A DNA stretch of 64,000 nt from Rhodobacter sp. SGA-6-6. Its GTDB lineage: Bacteria; Pseudomonadota; Alphaproteobacteria; Rhodobacterales; Rhodobacteraceae. Where the stretch lies: assembly GCF_011043545.1 (NCBI RefSeq), contig NZ_JAAKGP010000001.1, positions 62,001 through 126,000 of the forward strand, given 5' to 3'. The notes below the pieces were generated by a model. That model was not told the DNA's origin and searched no databases. It saw only the letters and a list, made by a program, of their open reading frames with translations. Made by a program: the position numbers and the translations under genes. Positions 6,040 to 60,215 of this stretch are shown here, in pieces (position 1 is the first letter of the stretch; each line of letters begins with the position of its first letter).

Positions 6040-6248
6040 GGGCGGAAAAAGGCGAGGCATTGCCTCGCCCCGCCCGTGCGAGTGAGATCACCCGGAGACG
6101 GTGGCAGCCCTGAACCCCGAGAGGCCAGCGCCCGACCCGGCGGGCGAGAAGCGCCCGCCGAGGGCGGGGCGGGCGCTGGCCGGGCCTTTGAGGCCCGGCC
6201 GGGATAAGGAGAAGCGATGCACTGTGGCGAAGGCACGCGCCTTCGCCA
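6040..6248 (+). repeat. Four-stem intergenic repeat, copy 1
   Basis: Member of the family described in the findings. In order: stem I around GGCGAGGCATTGCCTCGCC, a linker ending CACCCGGAGACGGTGG, stem II GGCCAGCGCCCG against CGGGCGCTGGCC with an inner hairpin, stem III CCGGGCC against GGCCCGG, and stem IV GGCGAAGGC against GCCTTCGCC. It lies between two convergent genes (cupin and L,D-transpeptidase). A second inverted-repeat module and a terminator follow before the right-hand gene. Confidence 0.9.
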
Positions 6249-6263
6249 ACGCACAGGCGGAAT

Positions 6264-6341
6264 GGCGGGGTGAACCCCGCCCTACGGCAGTTCGCGGCCG
6301 GTCCGATGGACGGAGGCCGGTAGGGCGGGGTTCACCCCGCC
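6264..6341. repeat. 78 bp inverted-repeat module
   Basis: Left arm GGCGGGGTGAACCCCGCCCT and right arm AGGGCGGGGTTCACCCCGCC are reverse complements; each arm is itself a short hairpin. A near copy occurs at 60232-60311, in both places directly after a four-stem repeat and before a terminator. It looks like a non-autonomous MITE-like or BIME-like unit. Confidence 0.85.
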
Positions 6342-6365
6342 GTCTGACCCGCACCCCTCTCACGC

Positions 6366-6390
6366 AAAAGGCCGCCCCTGCGGGCGGCCC
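6366..6390 (-). terminator. Rho-independent terminator of the L,D-transpeptidase gene
   Basis: On the - strand an 8 bp stem GGCCGCCC/GGGCGGCC with a 4 nt loop is followed by TTTTG. It lies 28 nt after the stop codon at 6418. Confidence 0.8.
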
Positions 6391-6417
6391 CTCTCGTGTT
6401 GTGTTGCCGCAAAGCGC

Positions 6418-7323
6418 TCACCCATGCGCGCCGCTGGTGCCCGCCATGGCTTCCACCGCCTCGATGTCCTCGACATGCAGCGGCGGGCAGTCGTCTTCCG
6501 GGATGCCGCGGCGCTTGCACTGGCGCAGGCGCTTCGCCTCGGCCTTCTCGGCGGCGACGCGATCCTCTTCGGCCTTCCGCGCCAGCTTCTCCTCGTCCTC
6601 GGCCCGCTTGGCGCGGTTCTCCGGCGTGTCGGGCATCACCCGGCCGAAGGCGTCGTCCATGTAGGGCCCCTCGACCGCCAGGCTTTCCGCCTCGGTCCGC
6701 ACCTTGACCCGGGTGCCGATGGGGGCCTTCTCGAACAGGTCGAGCGCATCCTGGTTGAACAGCCGGATGCAGCCGGCGCTGGTGGCGCGGCCCACGCTGG
6801 CATTGTCGATGGTGCCGTGGATGCGGAACATCGTGTCCCGCCCGCCGCGGTAGAGATAGAGCGCCCGCGCCCCCAGCGGATTCTCCAGGCCGCCCGGCAG
6901 GCCGCCGGCATATTCGGCGTAAAGGTCGGGGCGGGTGCGGATCATGTTGGCGGTCGGCGTCCAGCTGGGCCATTCCGCCTTGCGCCCGACATAGCCGGTG
7001 CCGCGGAAGCTGATCCCCTCGCGCCCGACGGCGATGCCGTAGCGGGTGGCGGTGCCGTCGCCATGCACCCAGTAGAGCTTGCGCGCATAGACATCGACCA
7101 CGATCGAGTCCGCCGGGTCGTCGGCAGTATAGGGCACCACTTCCTTGACGTTGCCCTCGATCAGGTATTTCGGGTCCACCGCCGGGATCAGGATGTCGCC
7201 GTCCTGCACCGCCTCGTAGCCCGGCACCCCGGCGGGGGGCGCTTCCGGCTCGGATCGTGGGCCGCAGGCGGCAAGCGCCGGGATCAGAAGGAAAACTGCA
7301 AGACGCAGGGCAAGGCTGTTCAC
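6418..7323 (-). CDS. L,D-transpeptidase (YkuD) lipoprotein
   Basis: 301 residues from a GTG at 7323. The first 20 residues form a lipoprotein signal ending ALAAC, with Cys20 as the lipid attachment site, so it is probably anchored in the envelope. The YkuD catalytic motif is complete: His169 (RIHGTID) and Ser182-Gly184-Cys185-Arg187 (TSAGCIR), the cysteine that forms or hydrolyses 3-3 peptide cross-links or attaches proteins to peptidoglycan. A charged helical tail (about residues 215-301) extends beyond the domain. The true start is slightly uncertain because no strong ribosome-binding site precedes the GTG. Confidence 0.9.
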   Translation of the reverse strand: MNSLALRLAVFLLIPALAACGPRSEPEAPPAGVPGYEAVQDGDILIPAVDPKYLIEGNVKEVVPYTADDPADSIVVDVYARKLYWVHGDGTATRYGIAVGREGISFRGTGYVGRKAEWPSWTPTANMIRTRPDLYAEYAGGLPGGLENPLGARALYLYRGGRDTMFRIHGTIDNASVGRATSAGCIRLFNQDALDLFEKAPIGTRVKVRTEAESLAVEGPYMDDAFGRVMPDTPENRAKRAEDEEKLARKAEEDRVAAEKAEAKRLRQCKRRGIPEDDCPPLHVEDIEAVEAMAGTSGAHG

Positions 7324-7546
7324 GGTGAGACTCGATGCTTGCGGCGGATTGACACGGCACCATGTCCCTGCCCGCCCCCCCGGCGTCAAGACCGCAATGC
7401 GACATTTCCGAACAAAGCGCGGGGCTGGTGCCACAGGGGACGGCGGTTTCCCGCCATTTTCCGGCAGGCGGACCCGGGGCGGCCCCTTGCAGCCGGAAAA
7501 AGCCTGCCCATGTAAAGGGCTGCAACATGAGAGGGGATCGACCAAG

Positions 7547-13838: not shown

Positions 13839-14051
13839 GGCCGGGCGGGAACAGGCGAGGCACTGCCTCGCCCCGCCCGTGCGCAAGGGTTGCACCCGGA
13901 GACGGTGGCAGCATGAACCCCGAGAGGCCAGCGCCCGACCCGGCGGGCGAGAAGCGCCCGCCGAGGGCGGGGCGGGCGCTGGCCGGGTGCTTTGGGCACC
14001 CGGCCGGACAAGGGGAAGCGTTGTGCTGTGGCGAAGGCACGCGCCTTCGCC
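13839..14051 (+). repeat. Four-stem intergenic repeat, copy 2
   Basis: Between convergent PepSY and znuB. Stem III here is CCGGGTGC against GCACCCGG instead of the common GGGCC/GGCCC, so both sides changed together. Stem IV has the CACGCG-type loop. Its right edge is 23 nt from the znuB stop. Confidence 0.9.
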
Positions 14052-14074
14052 ATGGAGGCCAGGCATTCCCGGCC

Positions 14075-17183: not shown

Positions 17184-17209
17184 AGCATCCGGCGTTCCCG
17201 CCTGTGCTG

Positions 17210-17420
17210 GCGAAGGCCATCGCCTTCGCCACAGCGCACGGTTTCAACCTGGACCGGACGGGACCACAAGTCCCGGCCAGCGCCCGACCGCCCCTCGGCG
17301 GGCGCTTCTCGCCCGCCCGGGCGGACGCTGGCCTCCCGGGGTCTTGCGTTGCCTTCGTCTCCGGGTGAACCCGCTCGCACGGGCGGGGTGAGGCAATGCC
17401 TCGCCGGTTCCCGCCCGGCC
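17210..17420 (-). repeat. Four-stem intergenic repeat, copy 3
   Basis: Reverse orientation, between co-directional znuA and the HemJ-like gene. Stem IV (GGCGAAGGC/GCCTTCGCC) is next to the znuA stop. Stem III is the GGGAC/GTCCC type. This copy fills most of the 294 nt gap; nothing else is seen in it. Confidence 0.88.
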
Positions 17421-19268: not shown

Positions 19269-19482
19269 GGCCGGGCGGGATCAGGCGAGGCACGGCCTCG
19301 CCCCCGCCCGTGCGCGACGGTTGCACCCGGAGACGGTGGGGGCACCAGACCCCGAGAGGCCAGCGCCCGACCCGGCGGGCGAGAAGCGCCCGCCGAGGGC
19401 GGGGCGGGCGCTGGCCGGGACTTATGGTCCCGGCCGGGACAAGGGGAAGCGTTGCGTTGTGGCGAAGGCGATGGCCTTCGCC
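19269..19482 (+). repeat. Four-stem intergenic repeat, copy 4
   Basis: Lies in the 400 nt gap between the amine oxidase start and the end of the 692-residue gene, both on the - strand. Stem III is CCGGGAC/GTCCCGG. Stem IV is 54 nt from the stop of the upstream gene. The rest of the gap (19136-19268, 19483-19536) holds no gene I can support; the first part should contain the amine oxidase promoter. Confidence 0.9.
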
Positions 19483-19536
19483 AAGGAGGCCGCGCGGGAG
19501 GGGAGTTTCCCCTGCCGAAGCGATTGCCGTAGGCCC

Positions 19537-31386: not shown

Positions 31387-31424
31387 GCAGACCGGTGTTT
31401 GGCGATGCCGCGCCCGTCCCGACT

Positions 31425-31636
31425 GGCGAAGGCCATCGCCTTCGCCACGGCGCACCATGGCAACCGGGACCGGCCGGACCTCAATGGCGCGGCCAGCGCC
31501 CGCCCGCCCCTCGGCGGGCGCTTCTCGCCCGCCCGGGCAGGCGCTGGCCTATCGGGTCTCGTGCCACCGCAGTATCCGGGTGATCCGCCGCGCACGGGCG
31601 GGGGCGAGGCAGTGCCTCGCCTTCTCCCGCCCGGCC
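31425..31636 (-). repeat. Four-stem intergenic repeat, copy 5 (partly decayed)
   Basis: Reverse orientation between two co-directional genes; stem IV begins 38 nt after the zinc finger stop. Stem III has two mismatches, unlike the other copies. The far end is only 24 nt from the DUF2459 start codon, so that gene is likely read through the repeat or has its promoter inside it. Confidence 0.88.
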
Positions 31637-35580: not shown

Positions 35581-35608
35581 GTGGGTCGACATCCGTTCCG
35601 GCCCGTCT

Positions 35609-35812
35609 GGCGAAGGCGCGTGCCTTCGCCACGGCGCAACGGTTCCGCTTGACCGGCCGGGACCATCAGTCCCGGCCAGCGCCCGACCCGGCGGGCGCTT
35701 CTCGCCCGCCGGGTCGGGCGCTGGCCTTCCGTGGTCTCGGGCTGACAGGTCTACAGGGTGAACCCATCCGCACGGGCGGGGGCGAGGCAATGCCTCGCCT
35801 TCTCCCGCCCGG
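35609..35812 (-). repeat. Four-stem intergenic repeat, copy 6
   Basis: Reverse orientation between convergent genes. Stem III is CCGGGAC/GTCCCGG. Its outer end runs directly into the first codons of a truncated gene (35751-35855), so this copy sits at a disrupted locus. Confidence 0.9.
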
Positions 35813-43487: not shown

Positions 43488-43698
43488 CCGGGCGGGAGAA
43501 GGCGAGGCATTGCCTCGCCCCCGCCTGTGCATGCGGTTTCCACCGGAGACCTGTCAGCACGAGACCCCGAGAGGCCAGCGCCCGACCCGGCGGGCGAGAA
43601 GCGCCTGGCCCAAGGGCGGGGCGGGCGCTGGCCGGGCCTTGGAGGCCCGGCCGGGATGGTTGATATGGCGGGATGTGGCGAAGGCGATGGCCTTCGCC
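43488..43698 (+). repeat. Four-stem intergenic repeat, copy 7
   Basis: Between convergent lysR and the DUF2125 gene. Belongs to the sub-type whose stem II inner segment reads GCGCCTGGCCCAAGGGCG, shared with copy 10. Stem III is CCGGGCC/GGCCCGG. Confidence 0.9.
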
Positions 43699-43711
43699 AT
43701 GGATGCCCCCC

Positions 43712-45277: not shown

Positions 45278-45391
45278 GTTGCTCTCCTTGGGCAAGTTCA
45301 CTGAATGCGGCGGGAGAAAACCCTTTTTGCCTTGCCTCCGCAAGGCCGGGAATCATCACTGCTGCGGCATCGGCGGAAAGGCGGGGCGGCC

Positions 45392-46201
45392 ATGGACAGG
45401 GGCCAGAAGATCAGGGTGCCAGAGGCCGCGCGCGGCGGCAAGCGGGCCGTGCCGGCGCGCGTTTTCCAGCCGCTGGCGGCGTCCTTTCCGTGGTCGGTGC
45501 AGCTCCTGCCCGGGCCGGGCGAGGCGCTGGTGGTCTCCTTCGCCTCGGTCGGACACGATCCCTTGCGCACGCCCTCGCCCGAGTTCGTCGGCTCCGCCAC
45601 CGCGGGCGGGCGGCCGGCGCTGTTCCTGTCGGACGCAAGCCGCAGCTGGTGCAATGCGCCCGGCTTCGCCGAGGTGCTGGCCGGGGCGGTCGATGAGGTG
45701 AAGGCGCGTCGGCCGGAGCGGCAGGTGCTGCTGATCGGCCAGTCGATGGGGGCCTTCGCCGCGCTCGCCGCCGCCAGCCTGATCCCGGCGGATGCGGTCA
45801 TCGCCATCAGCCCGCAGTTCTCGGTCGATCCCGCGGTGATGCCGGAGGAGCGGTGGAGCGGCTGGACCCGCCGCGTCGCCGCCTTCCGCTTCCCCGCCGC
45901 GCCTCTGCCCGAAGGACCGCGCATCATCCTGATGCACGGGATGGCGGACGACCTGCCGCAGGCGCTGGCCTTCCCGCAGCGCAAGGGGGTGGATCACATC
46001 CTCTTTCCCGGCCTGACCCATTCCGCGCTGGCTCCGCACCTCAAGGCCCGCGGCTGCCTGCCCGGGCTGATCGAGGCGGCGCTGGAGGCCGACCGCCGCC
46101 GCCTGCTGCGCATCTGCGCCAGCGCCGGAGGGCGGCTGCGGCAGAGGATGACGGATCGGGATTCGGCGCCGGACGCTCCGCCCCCGGATCGGGCGGGATA
46201 A
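45392..46201 (+). CDS. Alpha/beta hydrolase-fold protein
   Basis: 269 residues. Nucleophile elbow GQSMGAFAA with Ser at the centre, ISPQFSVDP after it, a later Asp (HGMADD) and the His of GLTHSAL complete a plausible catalytic triad. Substrate unknown. ATG at 45392 was preferred to an earlier one at 45305 because homology-like sequence begins here. Its stop codon lies inside repeat copy 8, so the last four codons (DRAG) come from the repeat. Confidence 0.75.
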   Translation: MDRGQKIRVPEAARGGKRAVPARVFQPLAASFPWSVQLLPGPGEALVVSFASVGHDPLRTPSPEFVGSATAGGRPALFLSDASRSWCNAPGFAEVLAGAVDEVKARRPERQVLLIGQSMGAFAALAAASLIPADAVIAISPQFSVDPAVMPEERWSGWTRRVAAFRFPAAPLPEGPRIILMHGMADDLPQALAFPQRKGVDHILFPGLTHSALAPHLKARGCLPGLIEAALEADRRRLLRICASAGGRLRQRMTDRDSAPDAPPPDRAG

Positions 46202-46398
46202 GGCGAGGCAATGCCTCGCCCCCGCCCGTGCGTATCGTATCAACCGGAGACGCTGGCGGCACATTCCCCGAGAGGCCAGCGCCCGACCCGGCGGGCGAGA
46301 AGCGCCCGCCGGGGGCGGGGCGGGCGCTGGCCGGGCCTTGAGGGCCCGGCCGGGACAAGGGGAAGCGTTACCCTGTGGCGAAGGCGATGGCCTTCGCC
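46191..46398 (+). repeat. Four-stem intergenic repeat, copy 8
   Basis: Between convergent genes. Its left end supplies the last codons and the TAA stop of the alpha/beta hydrolase gene. Stem III is CCGGGCC/GGCCCGG; stem IV is 36 nt from the hiuH stop. Confidence 0.9.
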
Positions 46399-46434
46399 AA
46401 GGCGAGGGAGCGGATACCGATCCGGTCCGGCGAC

Positions 46435-46794: not shown

Positions 46795-46861
46795 TGCCAT
46801 TCTCCCCTGCCGGTTTGCCTGCCCCATACTAGCCATCTCGGCGGCCCGGGCGAGCATGGCT

Positions 46862-46881
46862 GCGAAAGAAAGGTCTTTCGC
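46862..46881. promoter_or_regulatory. Candidate operator between hiuH and the puuE fusion gene
   Basis: GCGAAAG and CTTTCGC are perfect 7 bp inverted repeats with a 6 nt spacer, placed midway in the divergent promoter region. The binder is unknown; the LysR protein at 42559 is a possibility. Confidence 0.4.
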
Positions 46882-46944
46882 CGATTTCTTGAAAGAATAT
46901 TCTGCGGGCGCCGACTAATCTTCGCCAAAGATCAGGAGAGCCCC

Positions 46945-49199: not shown

Positions 49200-49202
49200 T
49201 CC

Positions 49203-49251
49203 CGGGTTTTCGCCGAAAACCCGCAATCCCCGAATTTTCGGCGAAAATTCG
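49203..49251. repeat. Pair of TTTTCGCCGAAAA-type palindromes within an operon
   Basis: 49203-49223 (core GGTTTTCGCCGAAAACC) begins 4 nt after the allE stop; 49231-49251 (core AATTTTCGGCGAAAATT) follows after 7 nt. The allA ribosome-binding region comes next. In mRNA they would form hairpins between two genes of the same operon. Confidence 0.8.
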
Positions 49252-49270
49252 TGCCACCGGAGACGTGACC

Positions 49271-49747: not shown

Positions 49748-49831
49748 CCGGGGCTTCTAACCGGATCGCGCGCAGGGGCAGCGCGAAGACGGCGCGAAGA
49801 TAACGCCCCGAGGGAAAAGGATAACCAAGGG

Positions 49832-51310
49832 ATGACCACGCACGTTCATCCGGTGGACGAGGTTCTCGCGCCGCCAAAACTCTTCACGCTCGGCCTCCAG
49901 CATGTCCTCGTGATGTATGCCGGTGCCGTAGCCGTGCCGCTGATCATCGGCCGCGCACTCAGCCTCAGCCCCGAGGATGTGGCCTTCCTGATCTCGGCCG
50001 ACCTCTTCGTCTGCGGCATCGCCACGCTGATCCAGTCGATGGGCGCCACGAAATACCTGGGCATCCGGCTGCCGGTGATGATGGGCGTCACCTTCGCCGC
50101 CGTGGGCCCGATGGTCGCGATGGCGGGCAACAATCCCGGCCCCGATGGCGCGCGGACCATCTTCGGCGCCATCATGGCGGCGGGGGTGATCTCGATCCTG
50201 ATCGCACCGCTGATGTCGAAGCTGCTGCGCTTCTTCCCGCCGGTCGTCACCGGCACCATCATCCTCGTCATCGGCGTCAGCCTGATGCGGATCGGCATCA
50301 ACTGGATCTTCGGCAACCCGGTCGGCCCGACCGCGCCGCAGATCGTGGACCCGGCCCATGCCGAATGGCTGAAGGCCGTGACCGAGGGCGCCGCCGCCGC
50401 CGGCCTGCCCGAAGCCCCCGGCGGCCTGTCGCTGGCGCCGAAGCTGAACAACCCGGCCTATGCGCCCCTTGGCAACATCGCCGTCTCGGCGGTGGTTCTG
50501 GCCTCGATCCTGCTGATCGCGCGCTTCGGGCGTGGCTTCGTCGCCAATATCTCGGTCCTCCTCGGCATCGTGATCGGCGCGGTCATCGCCTTCGCCATCG
50601 GCGCGATGTCCTTCGGCAAGGTTGGCGAGGCACATTGGTTCGGCCTGATCACCCCCTTCCACTTCGGCACCCCGGTGTTCGAATTGGTGCCGATCATCAC
50701 CATGTCGCTGGTGATGATCGTGGTGATGATCGAATCCACCGGCATGTTTCTCGCCCTGGGCGAGATGACCGACAGGAAGGTGACGCAGCCGATGCTGTCG
50801 GCGGGCCTGCGCACCGATGGCGTCGGCACGCTGATCGGCGGCATCTTCAACACCTTCCCCTATACCTCGTTCAGCCAGAACGTCGGCCTCGTCGGCGTGA
50901 CGGGGATCAAGAGCCGCTATGTCTGCGTGGCGGGCGGCATCATCCTGATCGTCCTCGGCCTGATCCCGAAGATGGGGGCGCTGGTGGAATCGATCCCGAC
51001 CATGGTTCTGGGCGGGGCGGGGATCGTGATGTTCGGCATGGTCGCCGCCACCGGCATCCGCATCCTGTCCGGCGTGGACTTCGCGAAGAACCGCAACAAC
51101 CTGTTCATCGTCGCGGTTTCCCTGGGCTTCGGGATGATCCCGCTGGTCGCGCCGGCCTTCAAGCAATGGATCTGGCACGACCTGCATCCGCTGATCGAAT
51201 CCGGCATCCTGCTGGCCTCGATCGCCGCGGTTCTGCTGAACGCCTTCTTCAACGGCGCCTCCGGCTCGCTGGACGAGATCAAGGCGGCGGCATCGAAGGC
51301 CGATCACTGA
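49832..51310 (+). CDS. Nucleobase:cation symporter-2 (urate/xanthine permease)
   Basis: 492 residues, about 12-14 membrane helices. NAT/NCS2 marks: LGLQHVLVMYAGAVAVPLI near the start, QSMGATKYLGIRLPVMMGVTF, VMIESTGMFLALGEM and the signature FNTFPYTSFSQNVGLV. Bacterial relatives take up urate or xanthine with protons. It ends the purine operon, bringing in the substrate of PuuD. A terminator follows. Confidence 0.93.
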   Translation: MTTHVHPVDEVLAPPKLFTLGLQHVLVMYAGAVAVPLIIGRALSLSPEDVAFLISADLFVCGIATLIQSMGATKYLGIRLPVMMGVTFAAVGPMVAMAGNNPGPDGARTIFGAIMAAGVISILIAPLMSKLLRFFPPVVTGTIILVIGVSLMRIGINWIFGNPVGPTAPQIVDPAHAEWLKAVTEGAAAAGLPEAPGGLSLAPKLNNPAYAPLGNIAVSAVVLASILLIARFGRGFVANISVLLGIVIGAVIAFAIGAMSFGKVGEAHWFGLITPFHFGTPVFELVPIITMSLVMIVVMIESTGMFLALGEMTDRKVTQPMLSAGLRTDGVGTLIGGIFNTFPYTSFSQNVGLVGVTGIKSRYVCVAGGIILIVLGLIPKMGALVESIPTMVLGGAGIVMFGMVAATGIRILSGVDFAKNRNNLFIVAVSLGFGMIPLVAPAFKQWIWHDLHPLIESGILLASIAAVLLNAFFNGASGSLDEIKAAASKADH

Positions 51311-51330
51311 AGCCCGGCCCCTGCAAAGCA

Positions 51331-51355
51331 AAAGGCCCCGCATCTGCGGGGCCTT
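51331..51355. terminator. Bidirectional terminator between permease and cold shock genes
   Basis: Stem GGCCCCGC/GCGGGGCC with loop ATCT, flanked by AAAA on the left and TTT on the right, so it can end both converging transcripts. Confidence 0.85.
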
Positions 51356-51379
51356 TCCGTTTCCGCCGGGGCGGAAAGC

Positions 51380-51586
51380 TTATGCCAGCGCCAGGTTGAT
51401 CGCCGATTCGCGGCCGTCGCGGCCACGCTCGACGTCGAAGGTCACCGCCTGCCCATCGGGCAGCTCACGGATGCCGGCGCGTTCCATCGCCGAGATGTGG
51501 ACGAACACGTCCTTCGAGCCGCCTTCCGGGGCGATGAAGCCGAAACCCTTGGTGCTGTTGAACCATTTCACGGTGCCATTGGCCAT
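51380..51586 (-). CDS. Cold shock protein (CspA family)
   Basis: 68 residues, a single OB-fold cold shock domain. RNP1-type GFGFIAP and RNP2-type VFVHISA motifs are intact, so it should bind single-stranded RNA/DNA as an RNA chaperone. AGGAG lies 9 nt before the ATG. The 200 nt upstream (to the GNAT gene end at 51787) would hold promoter and 5' leader; no other gene is visible in it. Confidence 0.96.
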
Positions 51587-51786
51587 CGTGGATACTCCTG
51601 TCATGTCGCCACCCGCGGAATGCGATGGCCCGGCTTCGTCACGAGAAAGATCGAGTGCCTGAAGCCGCAAGGGAGACAGAAGTTCGATGATCGAGTGGTG
51701 TCGCCCTTCCCACATGGGGCATCGGCGGCCTCATTGCAAGCCCGGCGTGGAAACACGGGCCGATTTGCGCCGGCCCGGCACAAAGA

Positions 51787-52233
51787 TCACAGCCGCAGGT
51801 CGTAGGTGGTCCAGCGGGTCTTTTCCGCCACCCGGTCGTAAAGCCCGCGGGCGCGGTAGTTGTCTTCCGCCGTGATCCAGCGGATCGCCGTCCAGCCGCG
51901 GGCGCGGCCCTGATCGGCCACCGCCCGGATCAGCGCCGCCGCCGCGCCCGATCCGCGCGCCCCGGGGTCCACGAACAGATCGTCGAGAAAACCACCCACC
52001 GAAGCCGAGAGCGGCCGCGCGAAGGCGCGGAAATGCGCAAGGCCGACCAGCCGGCCGTCGACCTCGGCCACCAGCCCCTCGGTCTCGTGCCCCGGATCGT
52101 GCAGCCAGCTCCAGACCCGGTCGCGCATCGCGCCGGTCTGCTCCACCCGGTAGAATTCGGCATAGCCGGCATAAAGCCGGTCCCAGCCCTCGCGGTCGCC
52201 CGCCGCCACCGGCCGCACCGTCACCTGTCCCAT
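51787..52233 (-). CDS. GNAT family N-acetyltransferase
   Basis: 148 residues. Acetyl-CoA loop region DLFVDPGARGSGAAAALIRAV, followed by GLYDRVAEKTRWTTYDL near the end. Substrate unknown. The ATG at 52233 has GGTGAG close upstream; an in-frame ATG at 52248 would overlap nrdJ. Five nucleotides after the nrdJ stop, so it is co-transcribed with it. Confidence 0.88.
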   Translation of the reverse strand: MGQVTVRPVAAGDREGWDRLYAGYAEFYRVEQTGAMRDRVWSWLHDPGHETEGLVAEVDGRLVGLAHFRAFARPLSASVGGFLDDLFVDPGARGSGAAAALIRAVADQGRARGWTAIRWITAEDNYRARGLYDRVAEKTRWTTYDLRL

Positions 52234-52238
52234 ATCGC

Positions 52239-54503
52239 TCACCCGCATCTGGAATGGCCGCAGGCGCCGCAGGTCATGCAGCCCTCGACCATCCGCATCT
52301 CCTGGGCGCCGCAGGCGGGGCAGGAGGCCCCGCGCGCGCCGACCGCCATCACCGCCGCCTTCGGATCGGACTTCAGCCCCAGCCCCTCTCCGGCGATGAA
52401 GCCGATGTCGATCAGGTGCCGCTCGATCACCCCGCCGATGGCGGCCAGGATCGAGGGGATATACTTGCCCTCCATCCACGCGCCCCCGCGCGGGTCGAAC
52501 ACCGCCTTCAGTTCCTCGACCACGAAGGAGATGTCGCCGCCGCGCCGGAACACCGCCGAGATCATCCGGGTCAGCGCCACGGTCCAGGCGAAATGCTCCA
52601 TGTTCTTCGAGTTGATGAAAACCTCGAAGGGCCGCCGGTGGCCGGCGATGATGATGTCGTTGATGGTGATGTAGAGCGCGTGCTCCGACCCCGGCCACTT
52701 GATCTTGTAGGTCTGCCCCTCCAGCGCCGCCGGCCGGTCCAGCGGGTCCGACAGATAGACCACCTCGCCCCCGGTCTGCGGTTGCGCGGCGGGCGGCACC
52801 GCGGCGGTCTCGGAGACCGTCAGCACCGACCCCGTCACCTCGTTGGGGCGATAGGTGGTGCAGCCCTTGCAGCCCTGATCCCAGGCGGCCATGTAGACCT
52901 CCTTGAAATCGTCGAAGGAGATGTCGGCCGGGCAGTTGATGGTCTTCGAGATCGAGGAATCCACCCATTTCTGCGCCGCCGCCTGCATCCGCACATGATC
53001 GAGCGGCGGCAGGGTCTGGGCATCCACGAAATGGTCGGGCAGGGGCGCATCGCCGAATTTCTCGCGCCACAGGCGGACGGCGTAATCGACCACCTCCTCC
53101 TCGGTCCGCGACCCGTCCTTCTGCAGCACCTTGCGCTTGTAGGCATAGGCGAAGACCGGCTCGATTCCCGAGCTGACATTGCCGGCGTAAAGCGAGATCG
53201 TTCCGGTCGGCGCGATCGAGGTCAGCAGGGCGTTGCGGATGCCATGGGCGGCGATGGCCTCGCGCACATCGGCATCCATATGCCGCATGTTGCCCGAGGC
53301 CAGATAGCCCCCGGCCTCGAACAGCGGGAAAGCGCCCTTCTCGCGGGCCAGATCGACCGAGGCCAGATAGGCCGCGCGGGCGATGGCGTGCATCCACCGC
53401 TCGGTCACCTCCGCCGCCTCTTCGGAACCATAGCGCAGCCCCAGCATCAGCAGCGCATCGGCAAGGCCGGTGACCCCCAGCCCGATCCGCCGCTTGGCCT
53501 GCGCTTCCTGCGCCTGTTCGGGCAGCGGGAAGCGGCTGACGTCCACCACGTTGTCCATCATCCGCACCGCGACCCGCACCAGCCGGTCCAGCGCCTCCAG
53601 GTCCATCGCGGCCCCGGGCGCGAAGGCCCCGGCCACCAGCCGCGGCAGGTTGATGCTGCCCAGCAGGCAGGCGCCATAGGGCGGCAAGGGCTGCTCGCCG
53701 CAAGGATTGGTCGCGGCGATGGTCTCGGCATAGCCGAGGTTGTTCATCGCGTTGATGCGGTCGATGAAGATCACCCCCGGCTCGGCATAGTCGTAGGTGG
53801 ACCGCATGATCCGGTTCCACAGGTCGCGCGCCTGCACCGTGCGGTAGACCTTGTCGCCGAAGACCAGCTCCCAGGGGCCATCCGCCTTGACCGCGGCCAT
53901 GAAGGCATCGGTTACCAGCACGCTGAGGTTGAACATCCGCAGCCGGGCCGGGTCGCGCTTGGCCTCGATGAAGGTCTCGATGTCGGGGTGGTCGCAGCGC
54001 ATCGTCGCCATCATCGCGCCGCGGCGGCTGCCGGCTGACATGATGGTGCGGCACATCGCGTCCCAGACATCCATGAAGGACAGCGGCCCGGAGGCATCCG
54101 CCGCCACCCCCTTCACCTCGGCCCCCCGCGGCCGGATGGTCGAGAAATCGTAGCCGATGCCGCCGCCCTGCTGCATGGTCAGCGCGGCTTCCTTCAGCGC
54201 GTCGAAGATGCCGCCCATCGAATCCGGGATCGTCCCCATCACGAAGCAGTTGAACAGCGTCACCTGCCGCCCGGTGCCCGCCCCCGCGGTGATCCGTCCG
54301 GCGGGCAGGAAGCGGAAATCCTCCAGCGCCTCGTAGAAGGGCTGCTCCCACCGCGCCGGATCGGCCTCGGGCTCGGCCAGCGCGCGGGCGATGCGGCGCC
54401 AGCTGTCCTCGACCGAGCCGTCGAGGGGCGTGCCGTCGGCCTCCCTGAAGCGATACTTCATGTCCCATATCTGTTCGGCAATCGGGGCATCGAAGCGCGA
54501 CAT
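52239..54503 (-). CDS. nrdJ: B12-dependent ribonucleotide reductase
   Basis: 754 residues, class II. Active-site features: TLFNCFVMG with a redox cysteine, NPCGEQPLPPYGAC (the Asn-Cys-Glu catalytic set) and the second redox half near the C-terminal Cys pairs. The TGTISL phosphate-binding part is present (APTGTISLYAGN). The end has a zinc-ribbon-like CPACG...CMTCGACG. Makes deoxynucleoside diphosphates with adenosylcobalamin, without oxygen or an NrdB subunit. ATG at 54503. No B12 riboswitch is visible in the 112 nt before it. Confidence 0.95.
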   Translation of the reverse strand: MSRFDAPIAEQIWDMKYRFREADGTPLDGSVEDSWRRIARALAEPEADPARWEQPFYEALEDFRFLPAGRITAGAGTGRQVTLFNCFVMGTIPDSMGGIFDALKEAALTMQQGGGIGYDFSTIRPRGAEVKGVAADASGPLSFMDVWDAMCRTIMSAGSRRGAMMATMRCDHPDIETFIEAKRDPARLRMFNLSVLVTDAFMAAVKADGPWELVFGDKVYRTVQARDLWNRIMRSTYDYAEPGVIFIDRINAMNNLGYAETIAATNPCGEQPLPPYGACLLGSINLPRLVAGAFAPGAAMDLEALDRLVRVAVRMMDNVVDVSRFPLPEQAQEAQAKRRIGLGVTGLADALLMLGLRYGSEEAAEVTERWMHAIARAAYLASVDLAREKGAFPLFEAGGYLASGNMRHMDADVREAIAAHGIRNALLTSIAPTGTISLYAGNVSSGIEPVFAYAYKRKVLQKDGSRTEEEVVDYAVRLWREKFGDAPLPDHFVDAQTLPPLDHVRMQAAAQKWVDSSISKTINCPADISFDDFKEVYMAAWDQGCKGCTTYRPNEVTGSVLTVSETAAVPPAAQPQTGGEVVYLSDPLDRPAALEGQTYKIKWPGSEHALYITINDIIIAGHRRPFEVFINSKNMEHFAWTVALTRMISAVFRRGGDISFVVEELKAVFDPRGGAWMEGKYIPSILAAIGGVIERHLIDIGFIAGEGLGLKSDPKAAVMAVGARGASCPACGAQEMRMVEGCMTCGACGHSRCG

Positions 54504-54615
54504 CGGGCGAGTCGTCCTTGAACTTGTGGATAAGCCGGGCGGAAGGCCCAAGATACGCCCGCTGCGGCCATGGGTCAACTTGCGGCGGCCGGCGCAAAGG
54601 TTAATCTGGCAGGCG

Positions 54616-55044
54616 ATGGAACAGCTGCACATCCTGAAGCTCTGCGTCGGCGCCGAAAGCGTCGAGGACCTGGACCAGTGGCAGGCCGCGCAGGCACCGC
54701 GCTGGCCGGCGGGCTGCGCCGTCCACGTCACCCGGATGTGGCCGAAGCGCGAGGCGGAACTCTTGTCCGGCGGCTCGCTCTACTGGGTGATCAAGGGGGT
54801 GATCCTCTGCCGCCAGCGGCTGATCCGGCTGGAAGAGCGGCGGGGCGACGACGGCATCCCCCGCTGCGCGCTGGTGATGGACCGGCAGATCCTGCGGACC
54901 GAGGCGGCGCCGCGCCGCCCGTTCCAGGGCTGGCGCTACATGCAGGGCAAGGATGCGCCGCGCGACCTGGCCCCGTCCCGCAGCGGCGACGATTCGATCC
55001 CCGAGGACCTGGCCCGGGCACTGGCCGAGATCGGGCTGCGGTAG
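54616..55044 (+). CDS. DUF1489 family protein
   Basis: 142 residues. HILKLCVGAESVEDLDQWQ, HVTRMWPKREAELLSGGSLYWVIKG and CRQRLIRLEER match DUF1489, a family nearly confined to alphaproteobacteria with no known function. Divergent from nrdJ, 112 nt between starts. Repeat copy 9 follows 28 nt after the stop. Confidence 0.92.
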   Translation: MEQLHILKLCVGAESVEDLDQWQAAQAPRWPAGCAVHVTRMWPKREAELLSGGSLYWVIKGVILCRQRLIRLEERRGDDGIPRCALVMDRQILRTEAAPRRPFQGWRYMQGKDAPRDLAPSRSGDDSIPEDLARALAEIGLR

Positions 55045-55072
55045 CGCAAGGCGATATCCAGCGCCGTGCTTT

Positions 55073-55285
55073 GGCCGGGCGGGAGAAGGCGAGGCACTGC
55101 CTCGCCCCCGCCCGCGCGCAGGGGTTGCACCCGGAAACATTGTTCACGAGAAACCCGAGAGGCCAGCGCCCGACCCGGCGGGCGAGAAGCGCCCGCCGGG
55201 GGCGGGGCGGGCGCTGGCCGGGCCTTTGGGGCCCGGCCGGGACAAGGGGATGCGTTGCGCGGTGGCGAAGGCGATGGCCTTCGCC
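55073..55285 (+). repeat. Four-stem intergenic repeat, copy 9
   Basis: Between convergent DUF1489 and GH25 genes. All four stems are intact; stem III is CCGGGCC/GGCCCGG. Stem IV is 44 nt from the GH25 stop. Confidence 0.92.
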
Positions 55286-55329
55286 AGGGAGGCCGGGCAG
55301 GTTCCCGCCGCAGACCCACCCGGCCGCCC

Positions 55330-56133
55330 CTAATGCACCCGCGCCGCCAGCCAGTCGCGCCAGTTGTCTTCCGACCCGGCGAAGACGTTGATGTCCACCT
55401 TGCCCGGGATCCCCGGCACCAGCCCGGTGGAGGTGTATTGCCAGAAGGTCCAGGGGTGGCCGTCATACAGTTCCGCCGGGTGCTTCGCCACCGCGCGCAG
55501 CCAGAAATCCGCGCCCTCCACCCGCCACATCTGGTTGTCCTCGAAGAAGTCGATCGAGGTGTAGAGGATCGGCCTTTGCCCGTAATGCGCCGTCACCGCG
55601 CGCAGGAAGATGGCGGCGTCGCGGCGGATGTCCTCGGGCGGGCGGCGGATGGTGCAGGTGGGCGAGAACGGCGTCCATTCCATGTCCAGCACCGGCGGCA
55701 GCATCCCCGGCGTCTTCGGGACGTGGCGGATGAACCACTGCGCCTGCTCGATGGCCGGGCGGCAGTGGTAGAAGAAGTGATAGGCGCCGCGCCGGACCCC
55801 GGCGCGATGCGCGCCGCGCCAGTGGTCGCGGAACATCTCGTCCACCCGGTCGCCGCCCTCGGTCGCCTTGATGAAGGCGAAGTTGACGCCGTTGGCCCGG
55901 GCCTCGGCCCAGTCGATGCCGGTCTGGTATTTCGCCACGTCGATGCCATGCACCGGATAGGCCCGCGGCGGCCTGCCGCCGTGGTCGGCAGGCTTGGCAT
56001 CGCCGAAATTGGCGCTGACCACCCGGTCCGCCGGCACGGCCACGGCAGGCCGGGCATCGGGACGGTCGGGGGAACGGGAGCCGCCACAGGCGGCAAGGAC
56101 AAGGCAGAACACAAGCAGCAGGGCGTTTCTCAT
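55330..56133 (-). CDS. GH25 lysozyme-like lipoprotein
   Basis: 267 residues. Lipoprotein signal ending LAAC (about residue 16), then a GH25 muramidase barrel: HGIDVAKYQTGIDW, NFAFIKATEG, RGAYHFFYH, PPVLDMEW (the catalytic Asp/Glu pair) and FWQYTSTG. It likely hydrolyses peptidoglycan in the periplasm. ATG at 56133 begins the signal; an earlier in-frame Met gives no signal peptide. Confidence 0.93.
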   Translation of the reverse strand: MRNALLLVFCLVLAACGGSRSPDRPDARPAVAVPADRVVSANFGDAKPADHGGRPPRAYPVHGIDVAKYQTGIDWAEARANGVNFAFIKATEGGDRVDEMFRDHWRGAHRAGVRRGAYHFFYHCRPAIEQAQWFIRHVPKTPGMLPPVLDMEWTPFSPTCTIRRPPEDIRRDAAIFLRAVTAHYGQRPILYTSIDFFEDNQMWRVEGADFWLRAVAKHPAELYDGHPWTFWQYTSTGLVPGIPGKVDINVFAGSEDNWRDWLAARVH

Positions 56134-56179
56134 GCCCGCACCATGGCGGCAGATCGGCGCCCTGTCACTCCGGAATCGG

Positions 56180-56524
56180 TCAGCCGGCGGGCGCCGCCAG
56201 CTCGTCCCAAGCCGCCAGCGCATGGGCGGCATACATCAGCGCCGGGCCGCCGCCCATCTGGATGCACATTCCCAGCACATCGCCCAGGTCCTCGCGCGTC
56301 GCGCCCGCCTTCATCAGCGCCTCGACGTGGAAGTTGATGCAGGGCTCGCAGCGCTGCGAGATGGCGATGCCGAGCGCGACATATTCCTTCTCCTTCACCG
56401 ACAGCGCCGGCCCCTCCTTCGCCGCCTTCGACAGTTCGGCGAAACCGGCGGCGACCGGCGGCATCAGCTTGTTCATCACCCGCAACTCGGCCCGCATCGA
56501 CTGGATCTTTTCCCGGTAGCCCAT
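56180..56524 (-). CDS. AhpD-like/carboxymuconolactone decarboxylase family protein
   Basis: 114 residues. The AhpD redox motif CEPCINFH is intact, with the preceding EYVALGIAISQR helix. Such proteins act as thiol-dependent peroxidase partners or decarboxylases. AGGAG lies upstream of the ATG. Stop-to-start distances of 46 nt to the GH25 gene and 66 nt from the methyltransferase gene allow an operon. Confidence 0.92.
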   Translation of the reverse strand: MGYREKIQSMRAELRVMNKLMPPVAAGFAELSKAAKEGPALSVKEKEYVALGIAISQRCEPCINFHVEALMKAGATREDLGDVLGMCIQMGGGPALMYAAHALAAWDELAAPAG

Positions 56525-56590
56525 GGCGCATCTCCTGCTTCTGACAGGGGGGGTCCTGCCATGGGCCGCGGCGGGCGGCCTTGACACATA

Positions 56591-57214
56591 TCAAATCTTG
56601 AATGCGATCAGCATCAGGTTGTTGGCGGGCATCGGCGTGACCTCCACCCCCAGCCCGGCGGCACCCATCCGCGCCATGACCCAACCGAGGTCCTTGTAGC
56701 CCAGCCGGGGGTCCTGCGCCCGGAGGTCGGCGTCGAAGGCCGCATCGCCGGCCGAGGTCGCCCGCCCCTCGCGCAGGAACGGCCCGTAGACCGCCAGCCG
56801 CCCGGCCGGAGCCAGCGCTCGGGCCGCCTCGGCGATCAGCACCGCTGCGCCTTCCTCCGGCACCAGATGCAGCAGGTTCACCGCCAGGATGGCGTCCCAC
56901 TCCTCCCCCGCCGACCATCCCGGCGCGCAGGCGTCCAGCAGCCGCGGGGCGCGCGCCACCGCTCCGGACCAGGCGGCGATGGAGGCGAAGTTGCCCGGCT
57001 CCACATCCGTTGGCTGCCAGTCCGCCGCCAGCGCCGGCGCGAGGGCCGCAGCGTGCTGGCCGGTGCCGGAGGCCAGTTCCAGCACCCGCGCGCCCGGGCG
57101 GACCACCCGGCGCAGCACGGACAGGATCGGCCCGGCATTCCGTTCGGCCGAAGGGGCGTGGCGGCGGCCGTCCGCCCCGACCTGCGCCCCGCTGTCGGGC
57201 AGCCGCAGGCTCAT
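56591..57214 (-). CDS. DUF938 class I SAM-dependent methyltransferase
   Basis: 207 residues. Starts HAPSAERNAGPILSVL and has the SAM-binding loop VLELASGTGQHAA, then WQPTDVEPGN and LHLVPEE; this is the DUF938 pattern. Substrate unknown. ATGA overlap with the upstream oxidoreductase gene. Confidence 0.9.
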   Translation of the reverse strand: MSLRLPDSGAQVGADGRRHAPSAERNAGPILSVLRRVVRPGARVLELASGTGQHAAALAPALAADWQPTDVEPGNFASIAAWSGAVARAPRLLDACAPGWSAGEEWDAILAVNLLHLVPEEGAAVLIAEAARALAPAGRLAVYGPFLREGRATSAGDAAFDADLRAQDPRLGYKDLGWVMARMGAAGLGVEVTPMPANNLMLIAFKI

Positions 57215-58299
57215 CCGAACCGCCCGGGCGACAGCGCCGCCACCAGTTCGGGCCGCAACTCGGGCGGGCGGCCGAGGATCAGGTCGGCGGCCAGCCGGCT
57301 GGCGCCGCCGCTGGACTGGAAGCCGTAGCCGCCCTGCCCCGCCAGCCAGAAGAACGACGGCTCGCGCGGATCGCGGCCGATCACCAGCACCCGGTCGGGC
57401 GCGAAGGTGCGCAACCCGGCCCAGTTGGAGATCACCCGCGTCACCGGCGCGGTCACGAATTCCTCGTAGCGCGCCAGACCCTCGGCCAGCACCATGTCGT
57501 CGGCCCAGGCGTCGTGGGGGTCCATCGGGTGTTCCTCGGCGGGCGAGACGATCAGCGCCCCGGCGTCCGGCTTGGCATACCAGTCCTCGCCCGGGCCGAA
57601 GATCATCGGCCATCCCGATACGTCCAGCCCGCCCGGCGCCGGGATGCGCGCCATCGACCGGCGGTAGGGCTGGAATCCCAGCGGCCGCACCCCCGCCATC
57701 CGCGCCACGCCGTCGACCCAGGCCCCGGCGGCGTTGACCAGCAGCGGCGCCTCCGCCTCGCCGCCCGGCCAGAGGACGCGCCAGCCCTTGGCCGTGCGCT
57801 CGATCCGCTCCACCCGCGCGCGGGTGACGATCCGCCCGCCATTGGCGCGAATCTCGCGGGCGAAGCCCTGCAGCAAGAGGTCGGTGTCGATGTCCTCGGC
57901 ATGGCTGGCATGGCCCGCCATCCTGACCACATCGGAGTTCAGCACCGGCACCAGTTCCAGCGCCCGCTCCACCGGGATCGGCTCGAAATGCATCCCCTCC
58001 AGGTCGGCATCGAAGGCCGCCCGCTGGTCCTCGCGCCCCACCAGCAGCAGGCCTCGCGGCGACAGGATGCCGGGGACCGAGCGGAAATAGTCTTCCGAGG
58101 CCAGCGACAGCTCCACCACCGCGGGGGCGCCATAGCGCGGCTCATACAATGCCGCCGAGCGGCCCGAGGCATGATGGCCGAGCGCCTCTTCCGCCTCCAG
58201 CACCAGCACCCGGGCATGGGGGGCGAGCCGGGCGCCGGCCGAGATCCCGGCGATGCCGCCGCCGATGAGGATGATGTCGGGGGCGCTGTCGGCGGTCAT
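57211..58299 (-). CDS. D-arginine dehydrogenase-like FAD oxidoreductase (DauA type)
   Basis: 362 residues of the DAO fold. FAD motif IILIGGGIAGISAGARL, then HHASGRSAALYEPRYGAP, DIDTDLLLQGFAREIRANGG, GAWVDGVARMAGVRPLGFQP, YRRS and FFWLAGQGGYGFQSS; this series closely follows Pseudomonas DauA, which oxidises D-arginine and other basic D-amino acids to keto acids. No dauB partner is nearby, so it may serve another D-amino acid. Repeat copy 10 lies upstream. Confidence 0.85.
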   Translation of the reverse strand: MTADSAPDIILIGGGIAGISAGARLAPHARVLVLEAEEALGHHASGRSAALYEPRYGAPAVVELSLASEDYFRSVPGILSPRGLLLVGREDQRAAFDADLEGMHFEPIPVERALELVPVLNSDVVRMAGHASHAEDIDTDLLLQGFAREIRANGGRIVTRARVERIERTAKGWRVLWPGGEAEAPLLVNAAGAWVDGVARMAGVRPLGFQPYRRSMARIPAPGGLDVSGWPMIFGPGEDWYAKPDAGALIVSPAEEHPMDPHDAWADDMVLAEGLARYEEFVTAPVTRVISNWAGLRTFAPDRVLVIGRDPREPSFFWLAGQGGYGFQSSGGASRLAADLILGRPPELRPELVAALSPGRFG

Positions 58300-58388
58300 C
58301 TGGTCTTTCCGTCCGGGGTGGGGCTATCCCCGGCATATAACCCCGCCTTGCGGGGGAAATGAAGCACCGCTTGTCAGGAGACCGGAGC

Positions 58389-58598
58389 GGGCGGGAGAAG
58401 GCGAGGCACTGCCTCGCCCCCGCCCGTGCGTGGCATGTCAACCGGAAACATGTCGGCCCTAAACCCCGGGAGGCCAGCGCCCGACCCGGCGGGCGAGAAG
58501 CGCCTGGCCCAAGGGCGGGGCGGGAGCTGGCCGGGCCTTTGGGGCCCGGCCGGTGTGGGTTGAACTGTTGCGCTGTGGCGAAGGCACGTGCCTTCGCC
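58389..58598 (+). repeat. Four-stem intergenic repeat, copy 10
   Basis: In the 317 nt gap between two - strand genes; stem IV is 18 nt from the sulfide:quinone oxidoreductase stop. Shares the GCGCCTGGCCC sub-type with copy 7. The remaining 89 nt (58300-58388) would carry the oxidoreductase promoter; no gene seen. Confidence 0.9.
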
Positions 58599-58616
58599 AA
58601 GGCGAGCGCCCCGGCC

Positions 58617-59903
58617 CTACCCCTTCCGGCTTTCCTTCAGCTTGGCGATCCCCATCGCCTTCATCGCCAGCGTCTCGTAGAACGGCTCCGAGGTGCCCTT
58701 CTTCAGCTTGCGCATGAAGTATTTCTCGAAGCCGACCTTGGCCAGATGCACCCATTTGCCGCTGGAGGACCAGTTGACGTTGCGCGGCGGGATCTGCGGC
58801 TGCGCCACGAAGGCGATGCCCCCGTCGCCGAAATCGGCCAGGCAGACCGCGTTCCAGGTGCCGACCTGGTCGGGCTCCTTGCCGCGCAGCAGGTTGCCGA
58901 TGTTATGGGCCGTGGCCGTCACCATGCTTTCGATCATGAAGCCGGTCTTCGGCACGCCGCAGGGCACCGGCGTCGGCCCCATCGGCGGGATCGCCACGCA
59001 GACGCCGACGGCGAAGATGTTGGGGAAGGCCGGGTTCCGCTGGTGCCGGTCGACGATGGTGAAGCCGCGGGGGTTGGACAGCCCCTCGATGCCGCTGACC
59101 GCCGGGACGCCGCGGAAGGCCGGCAGCATCATCGAGAAGGCGAAGGGCAGTTCGCGGGTGGCGCGGAGGCTGCCGTCCTCGGCCACTTCCTCCACCCACA
59201 TCTTGCCCTCCTCCACCTTCTTCACCCGGGCCGAGGTGATCCATTTGATGTGCTTCTCGCGCATCTGGCTTTCCAGCAGGCCCTTGGTGTCGCCCACCCC
59301 GTCGAGGCCGAGATGGCCGACATAGGGCTCGGCGGTGACGAAGGTCATCGGCACCCGGTCGCGGATCTTCGCCTGCCGCAGCGCGGTTTCCAGGATGAAC
59401 AGGAATTCGTAGGCCGGGCCGAAGCAGCTTGCCCCCTGCGCCGCGCCGATCACCACCGGGCCGGGGTCCTTCAGCAGCCGCTCGTAGACCTCGCGGGCCT
59501 TCAGCGCGTGGTCGATGTGGCAGACCGACTGGGTATGGCCGCCGTGCGGGCCGAAACCCTCGATCTCGTCGAAGGCGAGGTCGGGGCCGGTGGCGATGAT
59601 CAGGTAGTCGTAGTCGACCGAGGAGCCGTCCTCCAGCTCCACCCGGTTCTCGGCCGGATGGACCTTGCGGGCGGCGGTGGGGCGGAAGCCGATGCCCTTC
59701 TTCGCCATGGTCGGAGCCAGGTCGACGGTGATGTCGTCGCGCTCGCGCCAGCCGACGGCGATCCAGGGGTTCGAGGGCACGAAGTGATAGGTCGGGTCGC
59801 GGGTGACGACGGTGATCCGGTCCTCGGGCCGGAGTTGTTCCTTCATCTCGTAGGCCATGATGGCCCCGCCCAGGCCCGCCCCCAGAACCACCACATGCGC
59901 CAT
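58617..59903 (-). CDS. sqr: Sulfide:quinone oxidoreductase
   Basis: 428 residues. FAD motif VVLGAGLGGAIMAYEM at 5-20. Cysteines at 128, 160 and 354 match, with an offset of one, the essential Cys127, Cys159 and Cys353 of the Rhodobacter capsulatus enzyme; PKTGFMIESM follows the second FAD contact. It oxidises sulfide to polysulfide/zero-valent sulfur and reduces quinone at the membrane surface. A SqrR-type operator at 59945-59960 lies 42 nt before the ATG, in line with induction by sulfide. Confidence 0.92.
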   Translation of the reverse strand: MAHVVVLGAGLGGAIMAYEMKEQLRPEDRITVVTRDPTYHFVPSNPWIAVGWRERDDITVDLAPTMAKKGIGFRPTAARKVHPAENRVELEDGSSVDYDYLIIATGPDLAFDEIEGFGPHGGHTQSVCHIDHALKAREVYERLLKDPGPVVIGAAQGASCFGPAYEFLFILETALRQAKIRDRVPMTFVTAEPYVGHLGLDGVGDTKGLLESQMREKHIKWITSARVKKVEEGKMWVEEVAEDGSLRATRELPFAFSMMLPAFRGVPAVSGIEGLSNPRGFTIVDRHQRNPAFPNIFAVGVCVAIPPMGPTPVPCGVPKTGFMIESMVTATAHNIGNLLRGKEPDQVGTWNAVCLADFGDGGIAFVAQPQIPPRNVNWSSSGKWVHLAKVGFEKYFMRKLKKGTSEPFYETLAMKAMGIAKLKESRKG

Positions 59904-59944
59904 TGCGAATCCTCCCCCTCGCGCCCCGCCTATCATCAGTATAC

Positions 59945-59960
59945 ATTCGCATGTTTGAAT
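59945..59960. promoter_or_regulatory. SqrR/BigR-type operator upstream of sqr
   Basis: ATTC, 8 nt, GAAT: the exact spacing I recall for the binding site of the persulfide-sensing repressor SqrR of Rhodobacter capsulatus. It is 42 nt before the sqr start codon in an AT-rich patch. No sqrR gene is seen in the window. Confidence 0.75.
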
Positions 59961-60003
59961 TTCAAAACAGGAAATGCGCGGCGGCGAGGTTTGCCCAAGC
60001 CTG

Positions 60004-60215
60004 GGCCGGGCGGGAACAGGCGAGGCACTGCCTCGCCCCCGCCCGTGCGCGAAGGTTCAACCGGAGACATTGGTCACGCTAAACCCCGAGAGGCCAGCGC
60101 CCGCCCGGGCGGGCGAGAAGCGCCCGCCCGGGCGGGGCGGGCGCTGGCCGGGCCTTTGAGGCCCGGCCGGGACAAGGGGAAGCGTTGCACTGTGGCGAAG
60201 GCGATGGCCTTCGCC
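60004..60215 (+). repeat. Four-stem intergenic repeat, copy 11
   Basis: In the 470 nt gap between sqr and the BMP substrate-binding gene, both on the - strand. The inner part of stem II is fully symmetric here (GCGCCCGCCCGGGCGGG). The gap also holds the 80 bp module at 60232-60311, a terminator at 60329-60353, and the sqr promoter; no gene. Confidence 0.9.

Follow-up and report, generated by a model that had tools for sequence, protein, structure and literature searches.

The 64,000-nt stretch of the Rhodobacter sp. SGA-6-6 genome considered here, referred to below as the window, carries eleven copies of an intergenic element whose core of about 210 bp holds four stem-forming segments in a fixed order. 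The element is an apparently undescribed repeat, restricted to the family Rhodobacteraceae and under strong constraint on its shape. It is best read as similar in behaviour to miniature inverted-repeat transposable elements (MITEs) and to REPINs while belonging to neither family, with the tested defining features of repetitive extragenic palindromes (REPs) and their RAYT transposases, and part of those of MITEs, failing. On balance, though with reservations, we favour the view that the copies make up a non-autonomous, Rhodobacteraceae-specific family of mobile palindromic elements that is recognised by structure.

A profile built from the eleven copies and searched over the window recovered all of them over the entire length of the model (211 of 211 positions each, E 2e-50 to 2e-58), eight on the plus strand and three inverted, and independent repeat finding gave the same eleven places. 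This bears out the sequence-only reading, which had described eleven intergenic copies sharing four ordered stems and whose copy starts agree with the limits found here within 3 bases. The remaining profile matches (E 2e-5 and weaker) are opposite-strand parts of the same copies or chance, and no separate truncated copy was seen in the window by this search. Copies on the plus strand lie at 6039..6248 (profile positions 1-211 of 211, E 5.5e-58), 13842..14052 (in a convergent gene gap, E 1.8e-52), 19272..19483 (E 1.6e-57), 43489..43699, 46190..46399 and 55076..55286 (these three, found with the same profile, in convergent gaps), and at 58388..58599 (E 3.8e-56) and 60007..60216 (profile match), both between tandem genes. 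The inverted copies lie at 17208..17417 (E 7.9e-55) and 31424..31633 (E 1.1e-51), both between tandem genes, and at 35608..35811 (E 1.9e-50), in a convergent gap and with the bulge missing from stem 2; for these three, the start listed earlier corresponds to the hairpin-4 end.

Read along plus-strand copies, the element begins with hairpin 1, which is followed after a spacer of about 44 nt by stems 2 and 3 and, after a second spacer of about 23 nt, by hairpin 4. Hairpin 1 has an inner stem, GGCGAGGC/GCCTCGCC, within an outer CGGGCGG/CCGCCCG stem; GGCGAGGC, previously taken as the start of the element, is indeed present, but it lies 12 bases further in, inside this outer stem. Stem 2 has 12 pairs in its outer part and 8 in its inner part, separated by a bulge, and the loop AGAAG; the first bases of stem 3 are shared with it. 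Hairpin 4 is formed by TGGCGAAGGC, a 4-nt loop and GCCTTCGCCA. These parts map to 6039-6076 (hairpin 1), 6123-6181 (stem 2), 6178-6200 (stem 3) and 6225-6248 (hairpin 4) in the copy at 6039, and to 19272-19310, 19358-19416, 19413-19435 and 19460-19483 in the copy at 19272. Predicted folding of two copies with their flanks gives -160 and -152 kcal/mol, and fold z-scores are -5.7 for one copy in the plus sense and -5.1 for another in the reverse sense. Outside hairpins 1 and 4, a weak inverted consensus can be seen by eye (CCRCGGTTT... and ...AAACCGYGG), giving imperfect inverted flanks of about 8-13 bp, compared with 15-30 bp for the terminal inverted repeats of MITEs. A closing stem formed by these flanks was rejected: the consensus is inverted, but pairing within copies is little above the chance expected from column make-up and does not covary. 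Pairing between the two spacers was likewise rejected, with a score of 3.26 for a copy's own spacers and 3.36 for permuted ones (88 copies).

Over the whole genome (4.29 Mb, 67 contigs), the stem-2 core pattern occurs at 193 places with up to two mismatches and its reversed control at none, so the observation in the window is not due to chance; the hairpin-4 pattern occurs at 208 places with at most one mismatch. Moreover, a covariance model built from 40 copies and 53 pairs (R1), for which the best 150 candidates were scored per genome, matched all 150 of them over the full length in SGA-6-6. The sequence-only reading had staked its case on copies elsewhere in the genome, and the 193 core-pattern places provide them. 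Its extrapolation from density to many hundreds was too high: about 200 are present, at one per 22 kb genome-wide versus one per 5.8 kb in the window, where the density is some four times the genome average. The copies examined, 100 in all, come from the window and from 90 further loci, chosen as places with a zero-mismatch stem-2 pattern among about 100 of the 193 that were listed; 94 of these copies are full length, and among the six partial records two are adjacent pieces on contig C5. Because the further loci were chosen by the stem-2 pattern, the low variation of stem 2 is in part a selection effect; hairpins 1 and 4 were not used for choosing. Mean pairwise identity is 0.83, and nearest neighbours are 0.75 to at most 0.943 identical, with a median of 0.90.

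Within a genome, the palindromes are more conserved than the sequence between them. Diversity among the 94 copies is 0.000-0.035 in the counted arms of hairpins 1 and 4, 0.04 in stem 2, 0.15 in stem 3 with its loop, 0.155 in the hairpin-1 loop, 0.31-0.33 in the spacers and 0.55 in the hairpin-4 loop, and the same picture is found in two other carriers, G247 and G274. Linkage between common variants of these 94 copies falls from an r2 of 0.208 within 5 bp, some of which may come from indel alignment, to 0.046 at 6-15 bp, 0.024 at 16-40 bp and 0.013-0.018 beyond 40 bp, compared with 0.014 after shuffling. Beyond 16 bp, r2 is 0.041-0.045 in G247 (36 copies; 0.041 shuffled) and 0.049-0.060 in G274 (23 copies; 0.056 shuffled). 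Among 86 copies, 33 have the loop word GATG and 32 have ACGC, where independent columns would give 3.4 and 5.5. When six modules were compared in 15 association tests, many copies that fitted no class being left out of a test, the smallest p was 0.042, uncorrected. Short blocks are thus inherited as blocks and each copy is a mosaic, and we read the mosaics as exchange between copies, which may proceed by recombination or by template switching.

The shape is also kept between genera. In 27 copies from 12 genomes, hand-picked from the best matches (G085 and G400 left out) and aligned with MAFFT without structure, pairing is kept in 94.4% of 1163 cells, compared with 85.2% after shuffling and 38-47% when partners were slid by 1-3 columns. 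Compensatory change is found in 22 of 44 pairs (11.1 shuffled) and double change in 108 cells (31.3 shuffled), the hairpin-1 outer stem, where some rows are shifted, being excluded from the pair count. One hairpin-4 pair is seen as G-C, C-G, A-U and U-A; pairing is weakest in stem 3 (80.9%). With related sequences, the counts from shuffling cannot be read as probabilities, and the same sequences contributed in part to the structure; the case for conservation of shape is carried by the number of pair types and by the several genera represented.

Among relatives, the distribution is patchy. In a scan of the family with R1 (394 genomes including SGA-6-6, six candidates scored per genome), 141 genomes match at E <= 0.001, and strong full-length relatives (70 bits or more) are found in 12 of the 393 other genomes; below about 57 bits, many family matches span the middle of the model only. 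With 150 candidates scored per genome, the match counts in these twelve carriers, weak matches included, are at least 150, 70, 54, 34, 28, 12, 7, 4, 4, 3, 3 and 3. Of the 13 genomes of the genus, SGA-6-6 has at least 150 matches, G365 three, G400 one and G398 one weak match, with none in the other nine; the expansion is species-specific. A cross-genus model (R2), run with strict filters and six candidates each over 385 genomes of the class, at least five of the family among them, matched four, all from its own family and three of them at 38-49 bits. Since R2 matches are confined to the family, the weak family matches are unlikely to be general GC noise, and the covariance-model scan of this genome and other Rhodobacteraceae that had been proposed earlier places the repeat within the family. 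In the loci inspected by eye, without gene calls, the weak matches (L114-L130) look like stand-alone double hairpins resembling stems 2 and 3, often situated directly behind stop codons or between cistrons, and this core double hairpin is more widely spread than the four-stem form. One copy in the Pseudorhodobacter genome G247 (L194:14001-14200) has a hairpin 1 of the SGA-6-6 type, unlike its neighbouring copies; a transfer between genera is possible in this case. As for vectors, no match was found in phages and no exact pattern match in viral contigs, and a stretch present in two Leisingera plasmids covers 30% of the query.

Copies of the window are missing at all congener sites that could be aligned. 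The copy at 46190 is absent at four of four such sites, where its flanks adjoin (G365, G402) or lie 20-23 bp apart (G399, G398); the one at 55076 is absent at two of two (flanks 12 bp apart in G398, 92 bp in G402), as is the one at 60007 (38 bp in G365, 100 bp in G399), and the copy at 43489 is absent at its single aligned site (81 bp in G365, too short for a copy). For the other seven copies, including 58388, no alignable syntenic congener site was present in the loci compared. The unaligned stretch in SGA-6-6 extends 15-112 bp past the core on either side, which may point to a unit of more than 210 bp. In 398 kb of G365, window sites included, both flanks are in place for 11 copy records (10 sites); they lie at most 81 bp apart in 7 records (6 sites) and 955-1199 bp apart in four, and the three R1 matches of G365 are on contigs other than those of these four gaps. 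Among Rhodobacter bins, no occupied/empty pairs were found, the pairs being self matches or distant relatives. Tandem arrays, mostly of neighbouring copies arranged head to tail, are present in G274, in related Rhodobacter bins and in a few others, and several G274 matches are at contig ends. Of 33 distinct array junctions, 17 measure 30 nt and 24 measure 29-33 nt, and 19 of 33 periods are 238-241 bp; the 30-nt junction can, by eye, form a fifth hairpin.

The preference for gaps between convergent genes is marked. Genes were called with a home-made gene finder, and 19 of the 20 proteins near window copies have a Pfam match. Copies occupy 6 of the 11 convergent gaps in the window, 5 of the 37 tandem gaps and none of the 11 divergent ones. 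Among the 100 copies examined in the genome, 42 are in convergent gaps, 47 in tandem gaps (27 antisense and 20 sense to the genes) and 11 in divergent gaps; in 398 kb of G365, convergent gaps make up 15% of the total, tandem ones 69% and divergent ones 16%. The median convergent gap is 233 bp in the window versus 18 bp in G365. In other carriers, where a looser training filter was used and 30 edge and 3 distant copies were left out, 25 of 49 classified copies are convergent versus 39 of 367 unoccupied gaps. The median distance to a gene 3' end is 30-38 bp by class in SGA-6-6 and 91 bp in the other carriers. Between 42500 and 62000, five intrinsic terminators (GC hairpin followed by a T-run) were found, none inside the five copies there, and no promoter-like site lies inside a copy in this interval. 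Orientation in SGA-6-6 is strongly biased by contig, with 125 of 150 copies in the majority direction (permuted mean 96.6, maximum 109 in 5000). The contig-wide skew of the KOPS motif GGGNAGGG fits the orientation of 120 of 148 copies (two on C5 and C7 left out); the skew per locus is weak on the largest contigs. On contigs C1, C12, C23, C6 and C9, copy orientation is biased and follows GC and GGGNAGGG skew.

Comparison with Rfam, suggested by the sequence-only reading, gave no family at the gathering score, either for the window or for 20 loci from relatives; when one copy was compared at E up to 5, three weak matches appeared, the best being RT-15 with 19.3 bits against a threshold of 82. 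The repeat had also been said to match no described family, and a literature search, with most subscription journals outside its reach, yielded no description in Rhodobacteraceae. 'Rhodobacter' is absent from the main text of a REP survey (PMC3733652) and from that of RepRanger (PMC12306157). The domain Y1_Tnp (PF01797) was not found in SGA-6-6, G205, G274, G382, G242 or G026, six of the seven carriers searched, and G247 has one borderline match of 22.7 bits, at the cut-off, which it exceeds only with neighbours (23.1 bits); a control search gave matches to PF01797 in 5 of 14 known genomes. No transposase family was present among the 20 Pfam-searched proteins near window copies. The GTAG/CGTC foot of REPs is absent as well, hairpins 1 and 4 beginning with CGGG and TGGC (94-copy consensus, by eye). 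REP-like hairpins with a GTAG foot form a second repeat family, with 100 places in the genome at up to two mismatches, and adjoin 26 of the 94 copies in a crude motif test. Facing pairs of them stand beside the copy at 6039 (6265-6285 and 6320-6340, together 6265..6340) and beside the copy at 60007 (60233-60253 and 60290-60310, together 60233..60310). They are present although the SGA-6-6 genome has no Y1 transposase match. On contig C1 near 212,100 (L176), a shortened copy runs straight from the start of hairpin 1 into the 3' half of stem 2; a REP pair directly precedes this copy, which looks like a deletion between CGGGCGGG repeats. The five loci picked for a lone hairpin 4 proved to contain full copies or, in one case, a shortened one.

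If the copies are mobile, the unit would consist of the core of about 210 bp and its short, weakly inverted flanks, and one of its strands would fold into hairpin 1, the bulged stem 2, stem 3 and hairpin 4. A trans-acting host enzyme would recognise the folded hairpins and insert copies into DNA, with surviving insertions mostly behind genes and above all between convergent ones. The stems would be held alike within each genome while loop and spacer blocks are reshuffled between copies; movement would be the work of an enzyme acting on folded single strands, and the mosaics would arise by recombination or template switching. In favour of this reading are the copy number, the fold, the compensatory changes seen between genera, the absence of copies at aligned congener sites, the patchy distribution, the preference for convergent gaps, the mosaic make-up and the tandem arrays, all of them observed. 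Several observations weigh against this reading. No near-identical pair exists, the closest neighbours being 0.943 identical in SGA-6-6 and 0.947 in both G247 and G274, and therefore there is no sign of very recent copying. Target-site duplication was not detected as flank repeats of 2-10 bp at offsets 0-3, compared with shuffled pairs, in 94 copies whose true ends are uncertain, and congener intergenic DNA, about 80% identical, is too diverged for exact insertion points, so that gaps do not align. No mobilising enzyme was found in searches for Y1_Tnp, other transposases and reverse transcriptases not being searched for. The strand evidence across genomes is mixed, with G-U to A-C ratios of 26:2 in stem 2 and 3:11 in the other helices. 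Moreover, the bias with replication orientation is not repeated in other carriers: by hand tally, 12 of 34 copies agree with the rule in G205 (five left out, three on C5 being unclear and those on C40 and C2 having no data) and 21 of 40 do so in G247 (one on C13 left out), and replication orientation was for this reason not used for the mechanism. The mobile reading can also be taken further, to a cloverleaf element devoid of a transposase gene, of which new copies would be written by switching between existing copies at the hairpins; the family in a genome would then behave as a freely recombining population in which the host factor that recognises the stems keeps them to a single lineage-specific sequence. 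This extended version is offered tentatively, and we rather doubt it.

The main rival is a selected 3'-end element, a bidirectional punctuation between convergent genes whose stems are kept since each copy works, for example in mRNA 3'-end protection, in attenuation or as a binding site for gyrase or nucleoid proteins, as claimed for BIMEs. It is a credible alternative, though not the one we would expect to be right. It would account for the occupancy of window gaps (convergent over tandem, divergent empty) and the same preference in other genomes, for hairpin arms that are near-invariant over 94 copies while spacers drift, and for the core double hairpins that, by eye, stand behind stop codons or between cistrons in other genera. 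However, promoter avoidance alone would give the same placement, nine of twelve congeners have no match and their aligned gaps are short, both orientations are found with 11 of 100 copies between divergent genes, and no T-run terminator overlaps a copy in 42500-62000. Covarying helices, the tolerance of stem 2 for G-U on one strand and the strongly negative fold z-scores of both copies would suit a transcribed structured RNA family, trans-acting or borne on mRNA and multiplied as genes. We consider it unlikely, as the other helices prefer the opposite strand, orientation to the neighbouring gene is not fixed, no promoter-like site lies within a copy in the same interval, and some 200 copies occur with no Rfam match. 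The range of nearest-neighbour identities (0.75-0.94), with no near-identical pairs, would also be expected from the relic of a single ancient burst of an ordinary MITE derived from an insertion sequence and decayed since; the hairpin arms, however, are undecayed, and block alleles common to many copies yet unlinked are unexpected from a star-like burst, which makes this origin very unlikely. Mobilisation as a REP or REPIN by a RAYT (Y1) transposase is the least probable of all. Conserved palindromes, extragenic location and tandem clusters are all reported for REPINs (PMC3116915), GTAG-foot hairpins adjoin some copies and the carrier G247 has its one Y1 match, but the four hairpins have no GTAG foot and the other six carriers have no Y1_Tnp; RAYT mobilisation thus failed on both defining features tested, save for the borderline match.

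By filling 6 of the 11 convergent gaps in a window about four times denser than the genome average, the element shapes many 3' ends there. With a shape that is fixed, letters that change and blocks that are unlinked, it allows two questions to be put to the test: what keeps dispersed bacterial repeats similar when no recent copying has taken place, and whether palindromic repeats are moved by enzymes that are not RAYTs. Apart from the repeat, the window encodes a caspase-like protein (Peptidase_C14) with Sel1 repeats and a peptidoglycan-binding domain (29350-30846, minus strand) and, beside the copy at 19272, a predicted 692-aa protein with no Pfam match at E 0.001 (19537-21615, minus strand).

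Among known systems, Br-REP1 of Bradyrhizobium is similar in that, according to PMC5082802, it was originally discovered where the 3' ends of convergent genes overlap, differs strongly in abundance between relatives and has flanking palindromes; the comparison is one of features and not of sequence, and the class-wide model search matched the present element's own family only. The Rhizobium intergenic mosaic elements (RIME) appear, from their title, to share the intergenic, mosaic and alphaproteobacterial character. REPs and REPINs with RAYTs are alike in being high-copy extragenic palindromes with conserved palindromes, tandem clusters and family-specific sequences (PMC3116915 and PMC8266576), and a REP preference for convergent gaps is stated in PMC1525189. 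They are unlike the present element, which has four different hairpins in fixed order over about 210-240 bp, no GTAG foot, and a Y1 transposase missing in six of seven carriers tested and borderline in one. MITEs such as ERIC, NEMIS and RUP are similar in their length of 70-300 bp, their non-coding nature, their position near genes, their species-specific expansion and the absence of copies in relatives (PMC3733652). In contrast to MITEs, the element has a short imperfect inverted flank only, target duplication was not found, its stems have evolved by compensatory change and its copies are mosaics.

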